From a virus: a stretch of DNA of 21,297 bases. The notes beneath the pieces were generated by a model that had not been told where the DNA came from, did not search any database, and saw only the letters and a list, made by a program, of their open reading frames with translations. Positions 1,750 to 21,230 of the stretch are shown one piece after another. The stretch lies in the IMG/VR virus record IMGVR_UViG_3300030107_003150, positions 1 to 21,297 of that record; one strand, written 5' to 3'. The position numbers were made by a program, and so were the translations under genes. Position 1 is the stretch's first letter. Every line of letters begins with the position of its first letter.

Positions 1750-2393
1750 GTCTAGATCCAATTATTAGTGATCTACAGAAGACTAATCCTTCTGCAATTA
1801 TTGAATTATTTGAACTTGAATTAGATTCAACATTGCATGGTAGTCAAACAACCATGACATATAGATTTCATGCAGGTAGTAATTTAGATTTGAATGGAAA
1901 AGTTGTTTGGCAAAGTAATGAGTACTTACGTTACCCAGTAGAAGCAAGTGGTTTTGCTTTCCAAAAAGGGCAACTTCCCAGACCACAAATAACGATTAGC
2001 AATGCTTTATCTTTGATTAGTGCTGTAATGTTAGAGGTTAATTTAATAACAGCAGGTAATGATTTAACGGGTGCAAAAGTAACAAGAATTAGAACATTAG
2101 CTAAATTCTTAGATGAAACTAACTTTGCATCTAACGGACTTTTTGTTCAAGAAAATTCAACAGATTATATTGCTTTAGAAGATAGTGATTTATTTGCACA
2201 AGAATCTGTTAGTCCTGGTACTGCTGCTAACAATGAATTTCCTAGAGAAATATATTATATAGATAGAAAAGTTACTGAGAATAGAAATGTTGTTACTTTT
2301 GAGCTTGCTAGTGTTAGTGATTTGGCAGGAATTAGATTACCTAAAAGACAATGCACAAGGGATATATTCCCTTCTATTGGTACATTTATTTAA
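1746..2393 (+). CDS. Minor tail protein, lambda gpL-like, lacking the Cys cluster
   Basis: This 215-residue protein begins IISDLQKTNPSAIIELFELE, the typical opening of lambda gpL-family tail-tip proteins, and has the family's middle segment (FQKGQLPRPQITISN, about residues 72-86). Lambda gpL binds a [4Fe-4S] cluster through four C-terminal cysteines. Here the protein ends in RLPKRQCTRDIFPSIGTFI and contains only one cysteine in total, so that cluster cannot be present in the lambda form. The other two frames around the 3' end do not restore a Cys-rich tail, which argues against a simple frameshift. It overlaps the upstream gene (ATGA) and its TAA overlaps the next ATG (TAATG). Family assignment is confident; loss of the cluster is direct observation. 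Confidence 0.88.
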   Translation: MSLDPIISDLQKTNPSAIIELFELELDSTLHGSQTTMTYRFHAGSNLDLNGKVVWQSNEYLRYPVEASGFAFQKGQLPRPQITISNALSLISAVMLEVNLITAGNDLTGAKVTRIRTLAKFLDETNFASNGLFVQENSTDYIALEDSDLFAQESVSPGTAANNEFPREIYYIDRKVTENRNVVTFELASVSDLAGIRLPKRQCTRDIFPSIGTFI

Positions 2394-3100
2394 TGGCTTG
2401 GAAAGAAAAAGCATTAGAACATGCAAAAGAAGAAGAGCCGAAAGAATCTGTTGGCTTGTTATTAAATATTAAAGGTAAAAAAGTTTATTATCCTTGTCGT
2501 AATTTATCAACTTATTCTCATCAATGTTTTATTTTAGACCCAGAAGATTATGTTAAAGCAGATGGTTTAGGTCAAATCGTTAGCGTTATACATTCGCATC
2601 CAATAACGCCAGCAGTAGCAAGTGAAGCAGATAAAGTTAGTTGTGAAGCAGGTAGTTTGCCTTGGCATATTGTTAATCCAAAGACAGAACAATGGGGATA
2701 TTACGAACCAACAGGATACAAGCCAGCGTTAAAGGGTAGACCGTGGTGTTGGGGCGTTACTGATTGTTGGAGTTTGGTGAGAGATTGGTATCGAGAAGAG
2801 AAAGGGATTGAACTGATGGATTGGGAGCGACCTGTTACACCTGAAGAATTTTTAGAAAAACCAATGTTTGAAGATTGTGCAGAAGCAACAGGTTTTAGGT
2901 TGTTAGAGCCTAAAGAGAAATTAGAAAATGGTGATTTATTGTTTATGTCAATTATGGGTAAAGGATTGAATCATGTTGCGATCTTTTTAAATGGGGAAGT
3001 TTTACATCATTTAGCAGATCGCTTAAGTTGTCAGGAACCTTATTCTGAATGGTTGCTAAAATGTACGGGAGGTAGGTATCGCTATGTTGAAAACAATTAA
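2393..3100 (+). CDS. Tail assembly protein, lambda gpK-like (JAMM/MPN + NlpC/P60)
   Basis: This is a 235-residue, two-domain protein. Residues 1-90 form a JAMM/MPN metalloprotease domain: Glu18 (KESVGLL), then H67-S-H69-P, ten residues, and D80 (ASEAD) give the full H-x-H-x10-D zinc motif. Residues 110-235 form an NlpC/P60 cysteine peptidase domain: C125 in GVTDCWSLVRDWY, H194 in LNHVAIF, and a third polar residue at H205/H206. In lambda-like phages gpK is required for tail-tip assembly and is thought to process the tail tip or cut peptidoglycan. I chose ATG 2393 (MAWKEKALEH), which overlaps the previous stop, over an upstream ATG at 2351 that lies inside the gpL-like gene. It overlaps the gpI-like gene by 17 bp. 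Confidence 0.93.
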   Translation: MAWKEKALEHAKEEEPKESVGLLLNIKGKKVYYPCRNLSTYSHQCFILDPEDYVKADGLGQIVSVIHSHPITPAVASEADKVSCEAGSLPWHIVNPKTEQWGYYEPTGYKPALKGRPWCWGVTDCWSLVRDWYREEKGIELMDWERPVTPEEFLEKPMFEDCAEATGFRLLEPKEKLENGDLLFMSIMGKGLNHVAIFLNGEVLHHLADRLSCQEPYSEWLLKCTGGRYRYVENN

Positions 3101-8125: not shown

Positions 8126-8126
8126 A
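8114..8126 (+). repeat. 13-bp direct repeat, copy 2 (ATCAAAACGTAAA)
   Basis: This is the partner of the copy at 7024-7036. Here it covers the last three codons and stop of the collar fibre gene and the first base of the next start codon. The spacing between copies is 1090 bp, close to the length of the fibre gene. Confidence 0.6.
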
Positions 8127-11100
8127 TGGCAAACCGCAAAATTTCAGAGTTTACAGCCTTAACGGCTCCAGCGTCAGGGGATACCTTTGCGATTCTTGAT
8201 GTAGATGCTAGTGGTGCGGAAGTTAATAAAAAGATTACTTTTGCGAATGTTTTAGGTAAGGCTCCAGATGGTACTGCTGCTGCTCCAGCTTTTAGCTTTA
8301 ACTCAGATACAAACTCTGGAATTAGTGGAGGTTCAGATACTTTTGTTATAAGCACAGGTGGTACTGCTGCTATCTCTGTTGATAGCTCCCAGAATGTGAC
8401 GTTGAGTGCGAATTTGACTGTCAGTGGAACGACTACAACGATTGATACGACTACGCTGACTGTTAAAGATAAAAATATTGAGATTGCAAAAGGTAATGGT
8501 AATGATGCTGCTGTTGATGGTGCAGGTATAACAATTGATTCAACTGATGGTGATAAGACCTGGAACTGGGTTGATTCAACTGATGCTTGGACAAGTAGTG
8601 AACATATTAATTTAGCTTCAGGGAAAGAATATAAAATTAACAACACAACGGTTATAGGGGCAGCAGGGGCAGTTGTTCTTAGTGATGGACAGAGGAATAC
8701 TGTAGCTGGTACTAATGCAGGAGATAGTTTTACTGGAACTGATGCTATTAATAATACATTAATTGGATATAACGCTGGAACAGCAATAACAACTGGTGAT
8801 AATAATACTGCTATCGGTGAAGAAACATTCTCTGCAAATACAACAGGTTATGCCAATGTTGCCGTTGGTAATCATGCTCTAGATGCTAATACTACAGGTA
8901 TTTATAATACTGGTGTTGGTTATAATACTGTATCATCTTGTACAACTGGTAATAGGCATACTGGATTAGGTTCAGGAGCTTTAGAACATACTACAACTGG
9001 TAATGATAACACTGGAGTAGGGCAATATGCTTTACAAGCTAATACAACAGCAAGTAACAACACTGCTGTTGGTAGCTATACGCTGAAGCTAAACACAACA
9101 GGTGCTAATAATACTGCTACTGGTTATGCTGCATTAGATGCAAACACTACTGGTGATTTTAATAATGCTTTTGGTTCTGGTGCTTTAGGAGCAAATACTA
9201 CTGCTGATGGTAACTCTGCTTTTGGTCACGGTGCCTTGAATGCAAACACAACTGGAGCTACTAATACTGCTGTTGGATATGTTGCTCTAGCTGCAAATAC
9301 AACTGCAGCTAATAACACTGCTGTTGGGTATCAAGCTTTAGATACAAACACAACAGGTGCTAATAATGTCGCAGTGGGTGTTAACGCTTTAGATGCAAAC
9401 ACTACTGCAGATAATAATACTGCGATTGGAGCGTTTGCATTAATTCTAAATACTACTGGTGCTGAGAATACTGCTGTTGGTAAGGGAGCTTTATCTGCTA
9501 ATACCACTGCAGATAATAATACTGCTGTTGGGTATCATGCCTTAGATTTAAACACAACAGGATCTAATAATACTGCTTTTGGTACTTATTCATTAGACGC
9601 CAACACAACTGGAAATCAGAACGTAGCGGTAGGTAGAGATGCCTTAACGGCAAACACAACTGGCAATTATAATGTAGTTATTGGTTCTTATGCTTTAGAT
9701 TCAAACACAACTGCAGATAGTAATACAGCTTTAGGCCATGTTGCATTAACATTAAACACCACAGGAGCACAGAACACTGCTGTTGGTAAAGGTGCTTTAT
9801 CTGCAAATACCACTGCATCTAACAATACTGCTGTTGGTTATCATGCCTTGGATTTAAACACCACAGGAGCACAGAACACTGCTGTTGGTGCAGGTTGTTT
9901 AGTAGCAAACACAACTGCGTCTAATAATACTGGTCTTGGTTTTGAGGCATTAAATGCAAACACAACAGGAGCATCTAATACTGCTGTGGGTCGTGATGCA
10001 TTAGAAGAAAATACAGAAGGAAATAATAATATTGGTGTTGGCTATCAAGCATTAAGAGTAAACACAACTGGTTTAGCTAACGTAGCTGTTGGTGCTATTG
10101 CTCTAGATGCAAATACAACTGGTGATTACAATACAAGCATAGGGTATGAATCATTATCAGCAAACACCACAGCAGATTCAAATACTGGATTAGGTTCATT
10201 TGCTTTAAGATACAATACAACAGGAGCTGATAATACTGCTACTGGATATAAAGCATTAGAAGCAAACACTACTGGTGCTAGTAATACTTCTGTTGGTAGA
10301 AGTGCATTAGGTGCTAATACCACTGCAAGTTATTCTTCGGCTGTTGGACATGCTGCTTTAGCTAATAACACAACAGGAGCTAATAACACTGCGTTGGGAT
10401 ATGCTGCCTTAACAGCAAACACAACTGGAGCTGATAACACTGGTATTGGTAAAGATGCATTAAAAACAAATTCAACTGGAAGTAATAATACGGCTATTGG
10501 TAAGAGTTCTTTACAAGACAATACAACAGGAAATAATAATACTGCTATAGGTTTAAAGGCATTAGACAATAATACAACAGGAAATTCTAACGTAGCTATT
10601 GGTAATTATGCTGGAGAGCAAACGACTACAGGTAGTTATAACGTTTCTATGGGTTATGATGCATTAGAAGCAAACGCAACAAATTCTAATAACACTGCTG
10701 TTGGTCATAGGGCATTACAGGATAATACTGCAGATGATAATACTGCTGTTGGTTATTCTGCATTAAAAGAAAATACAACAGGTACTAAGAATACTGCTAT
10801 AGGTAGGACTCCGTTAAGTACAAACACAACTGGATCTTATAATGTTGCTGTTGGTTATGGTGCATTAGACGCAAACACAACAGGAGGTAATAATGTTGGT
10901 GTTGGTCCTAATTCATTAGGTGCAAATACAACAGCTAGCAATAATACTGCTATTGGTAATGATGTGCTGAAGTTAACTACTACTGGTGGTGATAATACTG
11001 CGGTTGGTATGTCAGCTATGGAAGATAACACCACAGGAATAGGAAATACTGCAGTTGGTCACGATGCTTTAGAAAAAAATACTACTGCAAATTATAATAC

Positions 11101-12124
11101 TGGTATTGGTCTTGAAGCATTACATGCAAATACTACTGGTGCAAATAACGTTGCTGTTGGTGCTTTCAGTTTAGACGCTCATACTACTGGACAACAAAAT
11201 ACAGGTGTAGGTTATGGTGCATTAGGAGCAAGTACGACTGCTGATTACAATACTGCTTTTGGTTCTGGAACTTTATCAAGCGTAACGACTTCAGAAAATA
11301 ATGTAGCGATGGGTAGAGCAGCGTTATATAACAATACTGCTGCTGATAATACTGCTATTGGATCATTAGCTTTATACCTAAATACAACTGGTGCAAGCAA
11401 CACTGGTTGCGGTAGAGGTGCTTTGCAATCTAATACAACAGGTGCAAATAACACTGCTGTTGGATATCAAGCTCTAGATACAAACACAACTGGAGGTAGT
11501 AACACTGCTGTTGGTTATGCTGCATTGACTGCTTGTGTAACAGGACAAAGAAATACTGCAGTAGGTTATCAAGCTTTAGATGTATGCACAGGTAATGACA
11601 ACACTGCAATAGGTCTTAGTGCTGGTGGTGCTTTAACATCTGGAGCTGAAAATACTTGTCTTGGTAGATCAGCAGGAGGGAATATCACTTCAGGTGATGA
11701 GAATATTTGTGTTGGATATGGTTCTGAAACGAGTTCTGCTACCGTTGATGGAGAATGTGTTTTAGGTTCTTCTGATATTGGTACTTTACGATGCAATACT
11801 CAAACTATTTCATCATTATCAGATCAAAGAGATAAAACAGAAATCATTGATTTACCAATAGGTCTTGATTTTATACATCAGTTGAAACCTAGAAAGTTTA
11901 AATGGGCATCAAGAGATGGAAATAGAAAAGATGGTACTTATGAAGCTGGATTTGTAGCACAAGAACTTCAAAATACTGAATCTTTAACTTCTGTTGATTA
12001 TTTACACTTAGTATTAGCAGAAAATCCCAATAGGCTAGAAGCATCTTATGGGCAATTAGTTCCTGTTTTAGTTAAAGCAGTACAAGAATTATCAGCAAAA
12101 GTCACGGCCCTCCAAGCAGGGTAG
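8126..12124 (+). CDS. Giant repeat tail fibre with C-terminal S74 intramolecular chaperone
   Basis: This 1332-residue fibre has four parts. Residues 1-110 are an attachment region with the pattern PAFSFNSDTNSGIS, related to the preceding fibre. Residues ~110-225 are a linker typical of cyanophage fibres (TTLTVKDKNIEIAKGNG). Residues 226-1209 are about 58 copies of a 17-residue repeat, consensus NNTAVGYxALxxNTTGx, predicted to form a long beta-roll shaft like the YadA head. Residues ~1225-1332 are a peptidase S74 (endosialidase-type) chaperone domain: S1232-D1233 in SLSDQRDKTEI is the expected self-cleavage site, followed by FKWASRDGNRKDGTYEAGFV and a terminal helix (VKAVQELSAKVTALQ). The domain normally assists trimer folding and then cuts itself off. 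The ATG directly follows the previous stop. It probably recognises host surface glycans. Confidence 0.9.
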   Translation: MANRKISEFTALTAPASGDTFAILDVDASGAEVNKKITFANVLGKAPDGTAAAPAFSFNSDTNSGISGGSDTFVISTGGTAAISVDSSQNVTLSANLTVSGTTTTIDTTTLTVKDKNIEIAKGNGNDAAVDGAGITIDSTDGDKTWNWVDSTDAWTSSEHINLASGKEYKINNTTVIGAAGAVVLSDGQRNTVAGTNAGDSFTGTDAINNTLIGYNAGTAITTGDNNTAIGEETFSANTTGYANVAVGNHALDANTTGIYNTGVGYNTVSSCTTGNRHTGLGSGALEHTTTGNDNTGVGQYALQANTTASNNTAVGSYTLKLNTTGANNTATGYAALDANTTGDFNNAFGSGALGANTTADGNSAFGHGALNANTTGATNTAVGYVALAANTTAANNTAVGYQALDTNTTGANNVAVGVNALDANTTADNNTAIGAFALILNTTGAENTAVGKGALSANTTADNNTAVGYHALDLNTTGSNNTAFGTYSLDANTTGNQNVAVGRDALTANTTGNYNVVIGSYALDSNTTADSNTALGHVALTLNTTGAQNTAVGKGALSANTTASNNTAVGYHALDLNTTGAQNTAVGAGCLVANTTASNNTGLGFEALNANTTGASNTAVGRDALEENTEGNNNIGVGYQALRVNTTGLANVAVGAIALDANTTGDYNTSIGYESLSANTTADSNTGLGSFALRYNTTGADNTATGYKALEANTTGASNTSVGRSALGANTTASYSSAVGHAALANNTTGANNTALGYAALTANTTGADNTGIGKDALKTNSTGSNNTAIGKSSLQDNTTGNNNTAIGLKALDNNTTGNSNVAIGNYAGEQTTTGSYNVSMGYDALEANATNSNNTAVGHRALQDNTADDNTAVGYSALKENTTGTKNTAIGRTPLSTNTTGSYNVAVGYGALDANTTGGNNVGVGPNSLGANTTASNNTAIGNDVLKLTTTGGDNTAVGMSAMEDNTTGIGNTAVGHDALEKNTTANYNTGIGLEALHANTTGANNVAVGAFSLDAHTTGQQNTGVGYGALGASTTADYNTAFGSGTLSSVTTSENNVAMGRAALYNNTAADNTAIGSLALYLNTTGASNTGCGRGALQSNTTGANNTAVGYQALDTNTTGGSNTAVGYAALTACVTGQRNTAVGYQALDVCTGNDNTAIGLSAGGALTSGAENTCLGRSAGGNITSGDENICVGYGSETSSATVDGECVLGSSDIGTLRCNTQTISSLSDQRDKTEIIDLPIGLDFIHQLKPRKFKWASRDGNRKDGTYEAGFVAQELQNTESLTSVDYLHLVLAENPNRLEASYGQLVPVLVKAVQELSAKVTALQAG
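8801..11752 (+). repeat. Tandem 51-bp (17-residue) coding repeat array, about 58 copies
   Basis: Inside the giant fibre gene I count about 58 successive 17-residue units by hand. Three (copies 38, 50 and 55) are one or two residues short. Each unit contains N-x-A-x-G, a hydrophobic A-L pair and, in nearly all, N-T-T. In copies 8-15 and 18-23 the residue after N-T-T alternates strictly between Ala and Gly, giving a 34-residue superrepeat. Copies 14-15 (9464-9565) and 20-21 (9770-9871) are nearly identical, showing a recent internal duplication at an offset of exactly 306 bp. Third-base differences show that most other copies are old. Confidence 0.92.
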
Positions 12125-14236: not shown

Positions 14237-14634
14237 TCTACCTGAGTTGTGCGAGTTATGTTTGTTATATTTGATAAACCTGGCCCGTGGTAAACCTGAT
14301 TCATTTGAAACGCTGCCCCTGCATTTTTGATAGTTACATTGGGCATTGTTGTTAGATCGGCTCCAGTCCATTGGTAGGTCGTTCCATTTACAGTTTGGTT
14401 AATAGTTGTTGGATCGGGCAACATTGTTGCTCCATCTATATCTAAATTTGTCCCAGTAATACTCAGAGAATGGCCCGTATTATAATCTGTTGATACAATA
14501 TTTTCTGTAATATTTTGAGTAGTTCGTGTCACTGCGGTCATAGATCCGCTAGAGAAATTAGGTACCACAGGTACTGCTATGACTGGTTTTTGCCACCCAT
14601 TTAATAACAACAATAGCGAAAGATAGCGTTTCAT
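14200..14634 (-). CDS. Predicted secreted Thr/Asn-rich protein
   Basis: This 144-residue protein has an N-terminal signal peptide (MKRYLSLLLLLNGWQKPVIA, cut probably after VIA). The mature part begins VPVVPNFSSGSM and is dominated by Thr, Asn and Ser (TRTTQNITENIVS; ending ITRTTQVESVTETTSTFSQ), with predicted beta structure and no cysteine. Its ATG overlaps the stop of the oxygenase gene (TAATG), and its 3' end overlaps the next secreted protein. The direct position after the oxygenase and the Pro-rich start of the mature chain make it a candidate substrate of that enzyme, which is an inference. No family is recognised. Confidence 0.78.
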   Translation of the reverse strand: MKRYLSLLLLLNGWQKPVIAVPVVPNFSSGSMTAVTRTTQNITENIVSTDYNTGHSLSITGTNLDIDGATMLPDPTTINQTVNGTTYQWTGADLTTMPNVTIKNAGAAFQMNQVYHGPGLSNITNITRTTQVESVTETTSTFSQ

Positions 14635-15227
14635 TAATGGATATAGGTAGAGATAATATATTTTTTATATTTTAAGGGTGGACATCCACGATGTATAAAA
14701 TTCCATACGGCAGGAAACATAACTAATTTCCCTACAGTTGGCTCAATTAATGTTCCATCTGCGAACTCAGTATGACCACCGCCATCATTTATTAAATCGT
14801 TTAAATAATATAACATTGCAAATATTCTAGGTCTTTCTTCATTGGTATTATCACTATGCCAATTAAATAATCCTCCTGGGTTATAGCTTTTTACGTTATA
14901 CCCTACATCTCTAAAATTATTTCCTTCAAACGGGTCAGGTCTTGGCTCTAATGTAGAGAAACCTTCCTCGCAATGATCTAGATAATTTCGTATATTTTGA
15001 CCAACATTTTTAACAAGTATTTCATCTATATCTTTCCATTCTTTTAGATTAGTAATGTAAAGGTCTTTAGAATCTTTAAGCGTTTTATCAACAACTTTTT
15101 CTCCTCTTCTTAAAATGTACCCATCAGTTTTTCTGTCATCTTTCTCGAATCTGTTGATAATTTCTTCGCATACATCTGCTGGTAAAGCATGATGATTGGT
15201 GTAGATATAATCTTCAAATTTGATCAT
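14634..15227 (-). CDS. 2-oxoglutarate/Fe(II)-dependent oxygenase (prolyl 4-hydroxylase type)
   Basis: The protein has 197 residues. The iron-binding triad is visible as H124-x-D126 (GLFNWHSDNTNEERP) and H179 (WNFIHRGCPPL). The segment AMLYYLNDLINDGGGHTEFA between them and TVGKLVMFPA before the second His are typical of the prolyl 4-hydroxylase-like (P4Hc) fold. The residue that usually binds 2-oxoglutarate is Arg; here Lys in LKYKKYIIS (K188 or K189) probably serves. Members hydroxylate protein side chains or other substrates using O2 and 2-oxoglutarate. There is no signal peptide, so it acts in the host cytoplasm. It is overlapped on both sides in an operon of exported proteins, whose products are the obvious candidate substrates. 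Marine cyanophages often carry such enzymes. Confidence 0.9.
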   Translation of the reverse strand: MIKFEDYIYTNHHALPADVCEEIINRFEKDDRKTDGYILRRGEKVVDKTLKDSKDLYITNLKEWKDIDEILVKNVGQNIRNYLDHCEEGFSTLEPRPDPFEGNNFRDVGYNVKSYNPGGLFNWHSDNTNEERPRIFAMLYYLNDLINDGGGHTEFADGTLIEPTVGKLVMFPAVWNFIHRGCPPLKYKKYIISTYIH

Positions 15228-17261: not shown

Positions 17262-17535
17262 ACAATTTATTCTGTTAGATCAACTAATGGAACCTCCTTC
17301 AATGGAGCAAGAATTAGAACTAGAAAAAAAGATCCGATGGTTCTCAGAAGGAGCTACTAAAGAGCAACTTTTAAAACATTGCGAAGCAGTCGAAAGGCAA
17401 AGCTTTCAGCAAGCACAATTCATTGCTAATTGTTTAACTGAAATAGCAAAATGCAAAGCTAAAATTGCTTGCTTAGAGAATCCTGTAAGACAACCTACGT
17501 TTAAAAATTTCCTAAGAAAAGTACTTGATTTATGA
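17245..17535 (+). CDS. Small helical protein of cyanobacterial/cyanophage type
   Basis: This 96-residue protein is entirely helical in character: LDQLMEPPSMEQELELEKKI, RWFSEGATKEQLLKHCEAVE, RQSFQQAQFIANCLTEIAKC. The pattern of a short acidic start, a helix with W..EGA..E.L, then QQ..FIA..L..IA is reminiscent of small proteins widespread in marine cyanobacteria and their phages, a recollection I cannot verify here. The start at 17245 overlaps the previous gene; ATG 17288 is a shorter alternative. It ends 6 bp inside the convergent zinc-ribbon gene. No enzymatic motif is visible. Confidence 0.65.
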   Translation: MESLDEQFILLDQLMEPPSMEQELELEKKIRWFSEGATKEQLLKHCEAVERQSFQQAQFIANCLTEIAKCKAKIACLENPVRQPTFKNFLRKVLDL

Positions 17536-17745
17536 AGGGACAAATGTTGCATCAGAGCCAGATTTACCCCATTTAACTTCGCTGCTTTTTATAACAACTT
17601 CTGGGTACTGAAGAGAATACCAACGGTGATCACAGATAGGACATCTTCTGCGCCTAATCGTGACTCCATCATTGTCTCGTTTAGTGCATACAACTCTAGT
17701 CCTAAGATTTGGACACTTAGGGCAAGGACAATAAGTTTGATTCAT
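17530..17745 (-). CDS. NrdR-like zinc-ribbon protein
   Basis: This 71-residue protein has C8-P-K-C11 and C35-P-I-C38 with 23 residues between the pairs, and the stretch RTRVVCTKRDNDGVTIRRRR before the second pair. This is the layout of the NrdR N-terminal zinc ribbon (CPxC ... IRRRRxCxxC). The ATP-cone that completes NrdR is missing, so this is a free ribbon of the type phages use as small DNA- or RNA polymerase-binding regulators (compare Ogr/Delta, which differ in spacing). Extra cysteines at 6 and 20 are present. It is the most downstream gene of the - strand module and is preceded by the unusual repeat region 17746-18136. A regulatory role is inferred. Confidence 0.75.
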   Translation of the reverse strand: MNQTYCPCPKCPNLRTRVVCTKRDNDGVTIRRRRCPICDHRWYSLQYPEVVIKSSEVKWGKSGSDATFVPS

Positions 17746-17760: not shown

Positions 17761-17815
17761 AACGAGAATGTTTTGTATGTGTTAAAGAAGTCCGATCTTA
17801 ATCGTATATCGGGAG
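17747..17815 (-). pseudogene. Decayed copy of the 3' end of the 19385-19594 gene
   Basis: Read on the - strand, the bases before the zinc-ribbon start encode IQNILVPAP-stop, matching the AQHILTPAP-stop end of the gene at 19385-19594. Just upstream, in another frame, LPDIRLRSDF resembles the WPDKRRSEH of that gene, but a stop interrupts the frame. The simplest reading is a partial duplication of the small gene that has since decayed by a frameshift. The alignment is short and made by eye. Confidence 0.42.
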
Positions 17816-18142
17816 CGATGGAGTTGAGGCGAGATGAAACGAATCGAGTGGTCATGCAGCGATGCGCGAAGAGGAGAGTCAAAGGGAATGGGGCTGCAAC
17901 GAGGCGATTTCTCACTCATCACCACGAAGGGCTTAAGTGAGTTGAAACACTTTTAATCGTGAAGTGTGAACGATTGCGGGGAGTCGAGGGGAAGCGAATT
18001 GAGTTGAATAGAGTCGGATAGAGGAGGATAGGATAGCTAAGACAAAAAATTAGGATGCACTTTTAGTCGTGAAGTGCGAACGATTGCGTTGAGTTGAAAA
18101 GTGTGGAATCGAGCTGAAAAGAGTAGAAACGGATAGCTAAGA
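17792..18142. repeat. Three hairpins with shared TTARTCGT loop plus 10-bp phased GAGTYGA arrays
   Basis: Hairpins: CCGAT/ATCGG (17792-17812), ACACTT/AAGTGT (17947-17967) and GCACTT/AAGTGC (18057-18077). Each contains TTAATCGT or TTAGTCGT between its arms, although the arms differ; the last two differ by an A-T to G-C pair change. After each comes GA(A/G)CGAT and a run of degenerate GAGTYGA heptamers starting at 17821/17831, 17981/18001/18011 and 18091/18111/18121, all in a 10-bp register. Two units end in GGATAGCTAAGA (18031, 18131); the last of these runs into the stop of the 18137 gene. Unlike flanking DNA the + strand is purine-rich. No gene is visible. An origin, operator array or structured RNA are the options. 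Confidence 0.7.
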
Positions 18143-18640
18143 ATCAGGTGGGATAAGCTTGGATGTCTTGATCAGAGACTTGGGTAAAGATTGACCTTTC
18201 CGTGTCGTCTGTAAAGACTGTTTTCTTGCCCCATCAGCAGCAGCAGCAATAAACGCATGATGAATTTGTTTAGTCTCTAACTTGCGTTTCTCTGATTCAT
18301 TCAAATTGTCAACGTCAATGTCAGTTAGTAACCTTCTGGCATTTTTACGTTGCTTCCTAATACCTGCTGTTGCTTGTGATGCCAAGTAATCAGGTGCTTC
18401 TTTGTCTGTAAGAATCCGAAGAGTTTTTTCTTCTCCTGTTTTTTCTTGTTTAATAACTATAGGTTCATTGATTTCTGCCCTTAGTTTTTGAATCTCTTCT
18501 TTTACTCTCATGTAAGCAAATTCATCAAAAGCATAATCAGGGAAATGATATTTATGAAATTCAATGATTTGTTCTTGAGTAATGGAAGAACCTTTTTCAA
18601 GGTTCCTCCAATCAAGTGGATGAATAGTTGAATCAGACAT
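18137..18640 (-). CDS. Conserved phage hypothetical protein (helical)
   Basis: The 167-residue product from ATG 18640 overlaps the end of the upstream gene by 8 bp. It has ITQEQIIEFHKYHFPDYAFD near residue 20, a helical middle, then LRILTDKEAPDYLASQATAG and IRKQRKNARRLLTDIDVDNL, and a basic end. The LTD-x-EA...G-x-R...R...DV pattern recalls a family found in many siphophages next to the same partner as here, but I do not know an assigned function. Charged, no membrane helix, no catalytic motif. The two genes form a unit separated by 110 bp from the upstream small genes, inside a DNA recombination/replication neighbourhood. Confidence 0.75.
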   Translation of the reverse strand: MSDSTIHPLDWRNLEKGSSITQEQIIEFHKYHFPDYAFDEFAYMRVKEEIQKLRAEINEPIVIKQEKTGEEKTLRILTDKEAPDYLASQATAGIRKQRKNARRLLTDIDVDNLNESEKRKLETKQIHHAFIAAAADGARKQSLQTTRKGQSLPKSLIKTSKLIPPDS

Positions 18641-19274
18641 CAAAACCTACCTCTACTAAATCACCAGCAGTAAATCTTCCATGTCTCGGTCTCCATGTAC
18701 CAAGACCTTCAGCTTTACCAGCCATTTTGATAATTCTTTTAAGTTGTTGAATACTTAATATTTCATCATCAACAGTCAAATTATAAGTAACCTGCCAAAT
18801 TGGAAACATTAAACGATTAACCCATACACCCCTAGAAGTAAATGCTGCTAATTGAAATTTTGGTGTTCTTGAATTGAACATTTCAATAGCTTCTTTTGGG
18901 CCGTCATATTCAATGGCTGCATCGTTAGAAACAACAACAGAACGAAGAACATCTTTTCCTAATTTCCATTTTGTTGCGGCATTTCTTAAGCAGCGTTGGA
19001 AATTAGCACCTGGAAGGATTGGGTTGGCAAATCCTTCAAAGTCAACAGTGTTTTCTGATTCGTCAACTGAGACTTCACCTTGCTTGTCCCAATAACCTGA
19101 GAAAACCCAATCAAGAGTTCTTAAAGCACGATGATCCTCGTCATTTTTCTTCTTCTTGGAATGGAAGAAAGATCTTTGTTTTGAGCCTTCTCCTAATGGA
19201 TCGGAACTTGCAACATTTGAGCAAAGTAGAGGGCCATCGCTCTCTAGCGTTACTTGAAAGCCTTTTAAAGCCAT
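18633..19274 (-). CDS. Conserved phage protein with GLGTWRPRHGRF end motif
   Basis: The protein has 213 residues. Visible blocks: SDGPLLCSNVASSDPLGEGS (residue ~12), KKKKNDEDHRALRTLDWVFS, an ILPGANFQRCLRNAATKWKL helix, AIEYDGPKEAIEMF, and near the end AGKAEGLGTWRPRHGRFTAG. This set of motifs (PLL...DPL, K-x-DED, YDGP, GLGxWRPRxGRF) recalls a widespread uncharacterised phage family whose members usually sit beside replication or recombination genes. The glycine/arginine-rich end is reminiscent of RAMP/Cas7-like nucleic-acid binding folds; that is a guess from motif shape only. It is the first gene after a 110-bp gap and overlaps the following gene. A nucleic-acid role is inferred. Confidence 0.78.
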   Translation of the reverse strand: MALKGFQVTLESDGPLLCSNVASSDPLGEGSKQRSFFHSKKKKNDEDHRALRTLDWVFSGYWDKQGEVSVDESENTVDFEGFANPILPGANFQRCLRNAATKWKLGKDVLRSVVVSNDAAIEYDGPKEAIEMFNSRTPKFQLAAFTSRGVWVNRLMFPIWQVTYNLTVDDEILSIQQLKRIIKMAGKAEGLGTWRPRHGRFTAGDLVEVGFDV

Positions 19275-20466: not shown

Positions 20467-20605
20467 GAGAAAGAATAATCTCGTTAGTTAGAGATGAAAG
20501 AGTGACCTGTGAATCAGATCCATAACGAAGTTGAACTTCGCGCTGCATTGCTTCAAAAGCTGCATTGTCTATTAAGGCGTTAAGCCTGACTTTTTCGCTA
20601 GGCAT
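20447..20605 (-). CDS. Small putative ribbon-helix-helix DNA-binding protein
   Basis: The 52-residue product starts at ATG 20605, overlapping the end of the annealing-protein gene by 8 bp. MPSEKVRLNALID fits the beta strand, AAFEAMQREVQLRYG the first helix, and VTLSSLTNEIILSHYAILK the second helix of a ribbon-helix-helix (CopG/Arc-type) fold. Such proteins bind DNA as dimers and usually regulate their own operon. No database check was possible, so the fold is inferred from pattern and length. Candidate targets nearby are the CTTAACG pair (19285-19314) and the GAGTYGA array. Confidence 0.62.
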   Translation of the reverse strand: MPSEKVRLNALIDNAAFEAMQREVQLRYGSDSQVTLSSLTNEIILSHYAILK

Positions 20606-21230
20606 TGTTCAACTCCCTCAGTAGTTCTTGCAGATGAATATCAGACATTTGTTTTAGTTTTGAGCCTGATCCTGTGACGTTATAAAGTTTTGCCTTTTCT
20701 GCAACCCATTGTTTCGCCTCGTCATCTTTTTTCTTTGAATTAAGTAAAACCATGATTTTCTCAATGGTTTCATCTTTTGAAGGTTTGGCAGGTTGCTTCA
20801 GTTGAGACTCAGGAACAATGTCGATCTTTTCATCAGAAATTTCTTCATCAGCCCAAAGTTCAAAACCTAACGAGAAAAAGAAGCAACTAGCAGCACATAA
20901 GGATCTCCGATGAGAATCCGTAATTTCTCTTGCTCCAATTTTTTCGTACTTAATGGCCTGATTATGATTATTCATAATTGAAAACGGAAACAAGCTGGTG
21001 CATGTTCCATCATCGTTTCTGAAATAACCCTGTAAGTAACCAGTCCCATCTGGAGCTTTCCAAACAGGATTGCCATCATCGGTTTCAAGGCAGTAAGTCC
21101 ATTCAGGAGCTTTGTCATTTAATAGCTGAGCAATTTTTGCCCAACACATGTACTTAGCTCTGAAATTGCCACCGCCTTTTTCGTGAACATCTTTTTTCTG
21201 GATTGTTCCAGATAAATTAGGTCTAGGCAT
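20598..21230 (-). CDS. DUF1071/Sak3-like single-strand annealing protein
   Basis: This 210-residue protein has the pattern of the DUF1071/Sak3 group of phage single-strand annealing proteins: YMCWAKIAQLLNDKAPEWTY, then a TGYLQGYFRN strand, LFPFSIMNNHNQAIKYEKIG, AREITDSHRRSLCAASCFFF and SLGFELWADEEISDE. The key features are W followed by P-x-W-x-Y, P-x-M-(N)-N-x-N-x-A-I, I-T-D-S-x-R-R-x-L, and a final G-x-x-L-W-A-x-E. These proteins coat and anneal single-stranded DNA in phage recombination and repair, usually together with an exonuclease and SSB. The C-terminal ~65 residues are a charged linker plus a second helical part (KIMVLLNSKKKDDEAKQWVA). It starts 6 bp after the preceding gene's stop. 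No experimental function can be claimed. Confidence 0.75.
   Translation of the reverse strand: MPRPNLSGTIQKKDVHEKGGGNFRAKYMCWAKIAQLLNDKAPEWTYCLETDDGNPVWKAPDGTGYLQGYFRNDDGTCTSLFPFSIMNNHNQAIKYEKIGAREITDSHRRSLCAASCFFFSLGFELWADEEISDEKIDIVPESQLKQPAKPSKDETIEKIMVLLNSKKKDDEAKQWVAEKAKLYNVTGSGSKLKQMSDIHLQELLRELNNA

Follow-up and report, generated by a model that had tools for sequence, protein, structure and literature searches.

The window analysed here, the whole of a virus record of 21,297 bases, very probably carries a locus of the VIPR (Viral Interference Programmable Repeat) type, belonging to a marine cyanophage and composed of a minus-strand vipr gene, a probable vap gene and three guide RNAs, the first of which is directed at the capsid gene of satellite-like elements. 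The identity of the vipr gene, the architecture of the RNA, its code and strand, and the matches to its targets were all established computationally.

VIPR was introduced in a 2026 preprint (PMC13142463), whose main text presents it as a system in which a RAMP protein and a vap gene accompany guide RNAs built from 9-16 pentamers. According to the same text, the pentamer follows the consensus GGY/NN or a related one, and the 3' tail of the SUSP1-clade guides holds a pseudoknot. The NN bases pair with DNA, one base being skipped between successive pairs, and many targets are satellites or prophages. The systems described there come from E. coli and Pseudomonas elements (PMC13142463). The preliminary description of the region at 17792-18142 had stated that no described element shows its combination of features, and this preprint has overtaken that statement.

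The vipr gene and a probable vap gene

The vipr gene (18633-19274, minus strand) encodes a RAMP-like (Cas7-family-like) protein of 213 aa, assigned to phrog_4652. A phmmer comparison matched residues 10-204 of this protein to PDB entry 36pp, 'SUSP1 Vipr protein' (E 5.4e-14), and the locus was therefore recognized as a VIPR system. In an alignment with the homologues of wV8, LittleE and Trine, the conserved G-rich loop G-x-WRPR-x-G-x-F is invariant. A Foldseek search with a low-confidence AlphaFold model of Vipr (pLDDT 61) gave Csm3/Cas7 as the best PDB matches, with E values of 6e-4 to 1e-2 for Csm3.

The probable vap (accessory) gene lies at 18137-18643 on the minus strand, overlaps the end of vipr and encodes about 163-168 aa, with a likely ATG start at 18640. 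Fold comparison of Vap yielded weak, winged-helix-like matches. No significant match was obtained against the known vap proteins available for comparison, and the hhalign comparison with wV8 gene 94 gave a probability of 3% (E 0.014). The components of a minimal VIPR locus are present, namely vipr, a vap gene (here the probable one) and a long noncoding flank. A search of viral contigs with the 163-aa Vap identified 54 relatives, and in these 54 loci vap is kept directly after vipr and ahead of the array. Similar arrays, often longer, occur downstream of vap in the relatives' loci examined; 181 units were parsed from them, and their architecture is unchanged where the flanking genes differ. 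The next gene downstream of the array in the window (17530-17745, minus strand) encodes an NrdR-like zinc ribbon of 71 aa (Pfam Zn_ribbon_NrdR, E 6e-6). It probably lies outside the system; in relatives, its position is taken by other genes or a terminator.

Architecture of the guide array

Three stem-loops were found at exactly the positions given in the preliminary description: 17792 (CCGATC/(t)ATCGG), 17947 (ACACTT/AAGTGT) and 18057 (GCACTT/AAGTGC). As it had also reported, all three loops share TTA(A/G)TCGT, and each stem is followed by GA(A/G)CGAT. A motif finder returned exactly three matches in the window, all on the plus strand and within the hairpin region (shuffled windows, 0-3). Base pairing of the loop core ATCGT with the RCGAT that lies after the stem makes each unit an H-type pseudoknot. 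Selection on structure, originally proposed from a single compensated A-T to G-C change between two stems, is borne out far more broadly by covariation in 77 unique units of relatives, picked without any pairing requirement. Over six stem positions, 70% of the pairs in these units are Watson-Crick; 2000 arm shuffles averaged 38% and never exceeded 46%. The stems of the relatives are highly diverse (CACTT, CACTC, CGATC, CAATTC, CAGTTC, GGGT).

The hairpins had been described as each followed by a 10-bp-phased array. The regular phase holds, but the period is 5 nt: GA autocorrelation over the region is 2.9x at lag 5 and 1.7x even at lag 40, the only phase in phage coding DNA being one of 3 nt, and the reported steps of 10 or 20 bp are multiples of five. 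The plus-strand repeat is G-M-R-N-N. It occurs 17 times at 17821-17905, 12 times at 17976-18035 and 10 times at 18086-18135, and all three tracts keep the frame of the CGATN at the pseudoknot end. When the whole window was scanned with a model of the repeat, this region gave scores of 36, 32 and 29, in a range of 29-37 bits, and no other place was detected (shuffled windows, at most 7). The region displays a purine/pyrimidine skew, its minus strand being C/U-rich, G-poor and evenly spaced. Relatives lacking the stems or the register were sought among the 54 related loci; both features are kept, the register being 5 nt. Rfam contains no family matching the window and gave only weak, chance-level matches in one relative's array, and the unit had no exact DNA match in viral contigs.

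Read along the minus strand, vipr and vap are followed three times by a pentamer tract and a pseudoknot. Guide RNA 3, nearest to vap, occupies 18057-18140 (minus strand) and consists of 10 pentamers (18086-18135) and a pseudoknot tail (18057-18084); its variable pairs, written on the plus strand, are TT TT AA TG TC CT AA TA AC TA. Guide RNA 2 (17947-18040, minus strand) contains 12 pentamers (17976-18035) with the pairs GG TC GG GC TT TT TA TC TA GA TA TA on the plus strand, and a tail at 17947-17974. Guide RNA 1 (17792-17910, minus strand) is the longest, with 17 pentamers (17821-17905), a tail at 17792-17819 and the plus-strand pairs TT GC AT AC TC TG AT GC GC AA GA TC GG TG CT AC GC.

Two different linkers separate these units. 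The linker between guides 1 and 2 (17911-17946) forms a hairpin, CTCACT/AGTGAG, with the conserved loop ACCACGAAGGGC, and this hairpin also occurs between the units of relatives, with differing stems. The linker between guides 2 and 3 (18036-18056) is GCTAAGACAAAAAATTAGGAT, likewise found between relatives' units, where it is sometimes a perfect CTAAGA/TCTTAG hairpin. Linker hairpins in the window (17911-17946) and in the arrays of L009, L016 and L018 have conserved loops of their own and varying stems; the loop is ACCACGAAGGGC in one clade and AACCTATTAAG or GGTTCTTGCACC in another. The main text of PMC13142463 mentions arrays interspersed with ribozymes, and it is possible that the linker hairpins between the guides are processing sites.

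The constant triplet and the strand of the guides

In relatives identified with the Vipr alignment, the constant triplet was read on the vipr strand. It is GGY in wV8, LittleE and Trine, whose Vipr proteins are 29-38% identical to that of the window, and YGC in relatives at about 47-50% identity. Relatives at about 54-67% have YGY or YKC, and the window has YTC, as do the relatives near to it. Within the window itself the triplet is YKC, mostly YTC/YUC and sometimes YGC. Some members (e.g. L155 and L167) are too degenerate for a triplet to be called. The stepwise passage from GGY through YGC and YKC to YTC with Vipr divergence was seen downstream of vipr across L168, L170, L172, L173, L111, L122, L124, L138 and L140. 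Such a stepwise change suggests that Vipr and its code co-evolve. Because the triplet grades with Vipr identity on the vipr strand, we infer that the window guides read YUC/NN on the minus strand, and this graded series is the strongest of the strand evidence. The succession of vipr, vap, tract and pseudoknot along the minus strand is also that of the published systems. The order of stem and loop and the pseudoknot topology of the wV8 tail on the vipr strand equal those of the window, and in L005 a bidirectional terminator lies directly against the last pseudoknot.

Targets of the guides

With 13 dinucleotides (26 bases), a 1-nt skip and at most 3 mismatches, guide 1 was found at 10 places in 8 of 400 genomes belonging to the family of the Synechococcus-type genomes described below, compared with 0 places for the reversed guide in the same genomes and a chance expectation that we estimate at about 0.03. 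All ten places lie at the 3' end of a gene in which a prohead protease is fused to an HK97-type major capsid protein (..RHPESFAAMQDAIA), the gene being intact or a remnant. The best full-length match covers 31 of the 34 guide bases; with three differences left, the exact target strain is not among the sequences searched. The capsid site of guide 1 also occurs in seven viral contigs and is absent from the VIPR phage records tested, the window included. The capsid C-terminus is a conserved motif, present in unrelated phages too, and guide matches in such phages may therefore be incidental. Capsid gene remnants at five loci (L097, L098, L099, L100 and L101) still contain the C-terminal target site, in the manner of decayed copies of such elements. 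None of the three guides had an exact match in viral contigs. Guide 2 had no target in 380 genomes of the family, and the matches of guide 3 are attributable to chance, since its 4 places are no more than those of reversed controls. No targets were found inside the VIPR phages themselves.

The reading rule was examined by scanning all guides of at least 12 repeats (n=145) against 227 kb of target-bearing loci. At skip 1, ten guides scored at least 21/24, and none did so at skip 0, 2 or 3 or with the order of dinucleotides shuffled. Five of the ten are directed at three distinct regions of the capsid gene: the C-terminus (guides of the window and L041), GGTNGAAPTLDNM (L007) and TATAGGNL/TASAGGNL (L032 and L030); the other five are directed at an integrase motif. 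The target-bearing loci were partly selected with the tested guides; the guides of L007, L030 and L032, which score 23/24 in the capsid gene, and that of L006, which scores 21/24 at the integrase motif, had no role in this choice. The skipped base occupies codon position 3 in all 14 of the best cases, which include targets on both strands.

A comparison of 156 distinct guides provided a separate indication of the integrase target. In the guides L026:1556 and L044:170, 19 of 20 variable bases are reverse-complementary to each other, and the backbone is on the same strand in both. Such a relationship cannot arise by descent, but it can arise if two guides read one site on opposite strands. Translated with the skipped base as wobble, the site reads T-P-Y-S/C-F-R-H-G-Y-A, the active-site motif of tyrosine integrases (RHGYA). 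A pattern of this shape, searched over the genomes of 84,980 species, gave two matches, both in Synechococcus-type genomes. At locus L065 a 409-aa integrase carries ITPYSFRHGYAFRAH. The L040 integrase used as a query found no relative in genome contigs, and an exact search of viral contigs for the integrase site found none.

The target loci look like compact, integrated elements and encode a capsid-protease fusion, an AAA_25 ATPase and a tyrosine integrase; the virus contig L082 contains the same three genes. They are situated beside tRNA-Pro(tgg) or tRNA-Ala(ggc), between ordinary host genes (L087, L088, L089, L090, L065 and L082). No terminase or portal was found among the tested proteins of these loci. 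They are here called satellite-like elements of picocyanobacteria, similar in outline only to tycheposons and VEIME satellites (PMC10187409, PMC10872708), and we infer that they depend on this phage. Its host is probably a picocyanobacterium, because the most complete database matches of the window tail protein J are in the Prochlorococcus phages MED4-117 and MED4-184, and a marine single-cell virus contig shows about 70% identity to the window in its tail proteins.

Proposed mechanism and relation to known systems

By analogy with the SUSP1 system, Vipr would oligomerise on the guide tract, holding the constant triplets, and the variable dinucleotides would pair with DNA, one target base being skipped between them. 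Guide 1 is aimed at satellite-like elements integrated in picocyanobacteria, at the 3' end of their capsid gene, and the guides of sister phages at other capsid sites and at the integrase active-site motif. The likely outcome is that satellites parasitising this phage are silenced. Ribonucleoprotein assembly, DNA binding, repression and a benefit to the phage are all predicted in this scheme.

The window locus resembles the SUSP1 clade of VIPR in its homologous Vipr, the small gene that follows, the guide array downstream, the pentamer tract with a 3' pseudoknot, the 1-nt skip placed on codon wobble and the use of satellites as targets. It differs in the triplet, which is YUC instead of GGY; the strict GGY consensus does not apply, and the graded series joins the two forms. 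Its Vap is not recognisably homologous, its carriers are marine cyanophages with three to eight guides and alternating hairpin linkers, and its targets are capsid and integrase genes of picocyanobacteria. The guides comprise 10, 12 and 17 repeats, compared with the 9-16 given in the main text of PMC13142463, and the YUC triplet and the natural targets go beyond that text. Overall, it is rather probable that the triplet drifted from GGY to YUC by way of YGC and YKC, with a triplet of its own read in each Vipr lineage, and that the YUC systems of many marine cyanophages silence satellite capsid and integrase genes, constituting an unreported VIPR type with unreported targets. This would extend the RNA-guided VIPR principle to a large group of marine cyanophages. 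It would also mean that the constant half of the code is able to change under an unaltered reading rule, so that swaps could directly probe the specificity of protein for triplet; lineage-specific constant triplets would also be a source of orthogonal programmable DNA binders. With the capsid and integrase genes of picocyanobacterial satellites as natural targets, the guide system would be tied to the oceanic conflict between phages and satellites.

Class 1 CRISPR-Cas systems (Cas7/Csm3 RAMPs) share with this locus a RAMP-like fold, a guide array and the combination of a constant handle and a variable part. However, they have identical repeats, cas genes and a contiguous spacer, whereas in the window the copies are 61-78% alike and the guide bases are interrupted every two letters, and no cas match was obtained among the proteins scanned from the vipr/vap region. 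The RNA repeats of type III toxin-antitoxin systems (ToxIN, CptIN) are also tandem pseudoknot RNAs, but those systems include an endoribonuclease toxin gene, which the window lacks, and the window units have long variable tracts. In the absence of a toxin, the tail pseudoknot was rejected as a type III antitoxin.

Alternative interpretations

Of the three options originally offered for the region, structured RNA proved right. A replication origin with iterons or an operator array, in which proteins would bind duplex repeats phased at 10 bp, is extremely improbable: the purine/pyrimidine skew, the spacing in multiples of 10 bp and the small regulator-like genes nearby agree with such a DNA element, but they have to be set against a true period of 5 nt, co-varying stems and pseudoknot, an architecture kept next to other flanking genes, and a transcript that belongs to the minus-strand vipr-vap operon. 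No replication initiator was present among the proteins scanned. Moreover, the dinucleotides carry target information; they are not the same from unit to unit, and only at skip 1 do they match codons of the capsid and integrase genes; these matches refute the DNA-operator reading. There is equally little chance that the array is a passive structured RNA, for example a minus-strand Rho-utilisation region or an RNA sponge of a TRAP-type RNA-binding ring protein. TRAP binds triplets separated by 2-nt spacers, and the window offers 5-nt spaced triplets on a C/U-rich, G-poor, regularly spaced strand. This explanation leaves the adjoining Vipr gene, the conservation of variable bases in sister guides and the target matches unaccounted for, and both of its forms were dropped because Vipr and the target matches were found.

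It is also very unlikely that the locus, while being a VIPR system, uses a plus-strand guide with a GAR/NN code and a 5' pseudoknot. GAR begins with G, as GGY does, the target search is blind to strand, and the counts of G-U versus A-C pairs in the stems do not decide between strands. Against this stand the graded GGY-YGC-YKC-YTC series on the vipr strand and the geometry of pseudoknots, which on the plus strand would need a loop of 1-4 nt to cross a stem of 6-9 bp. In L005, furthermore, a terminator on the plus strand stops about 4 nt short of the first unit.

Other genes of the window

Several further genes accompany the VIPR locus. A 1332-aa protein (8126-12124) contains many NTAVGYxAL..NTTG repeats and has a C-terminus like that of chaperoned tail fibres; it is probably a repetitive adhesin or tail fibre. 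A fusion-like tail protein with JAB and NlpC/P60 domains (Pfam), comparable to lambda-type tail assembly proteins, is encoded at 2351-3100, and a 2OG-Fe(II) oxygenase gene (14634-15227) lies on the opposite strand among structural genes. A Sak-type single-strand annealing protein (Pfam SSAP_Sak) is encoded at 20598-21230.
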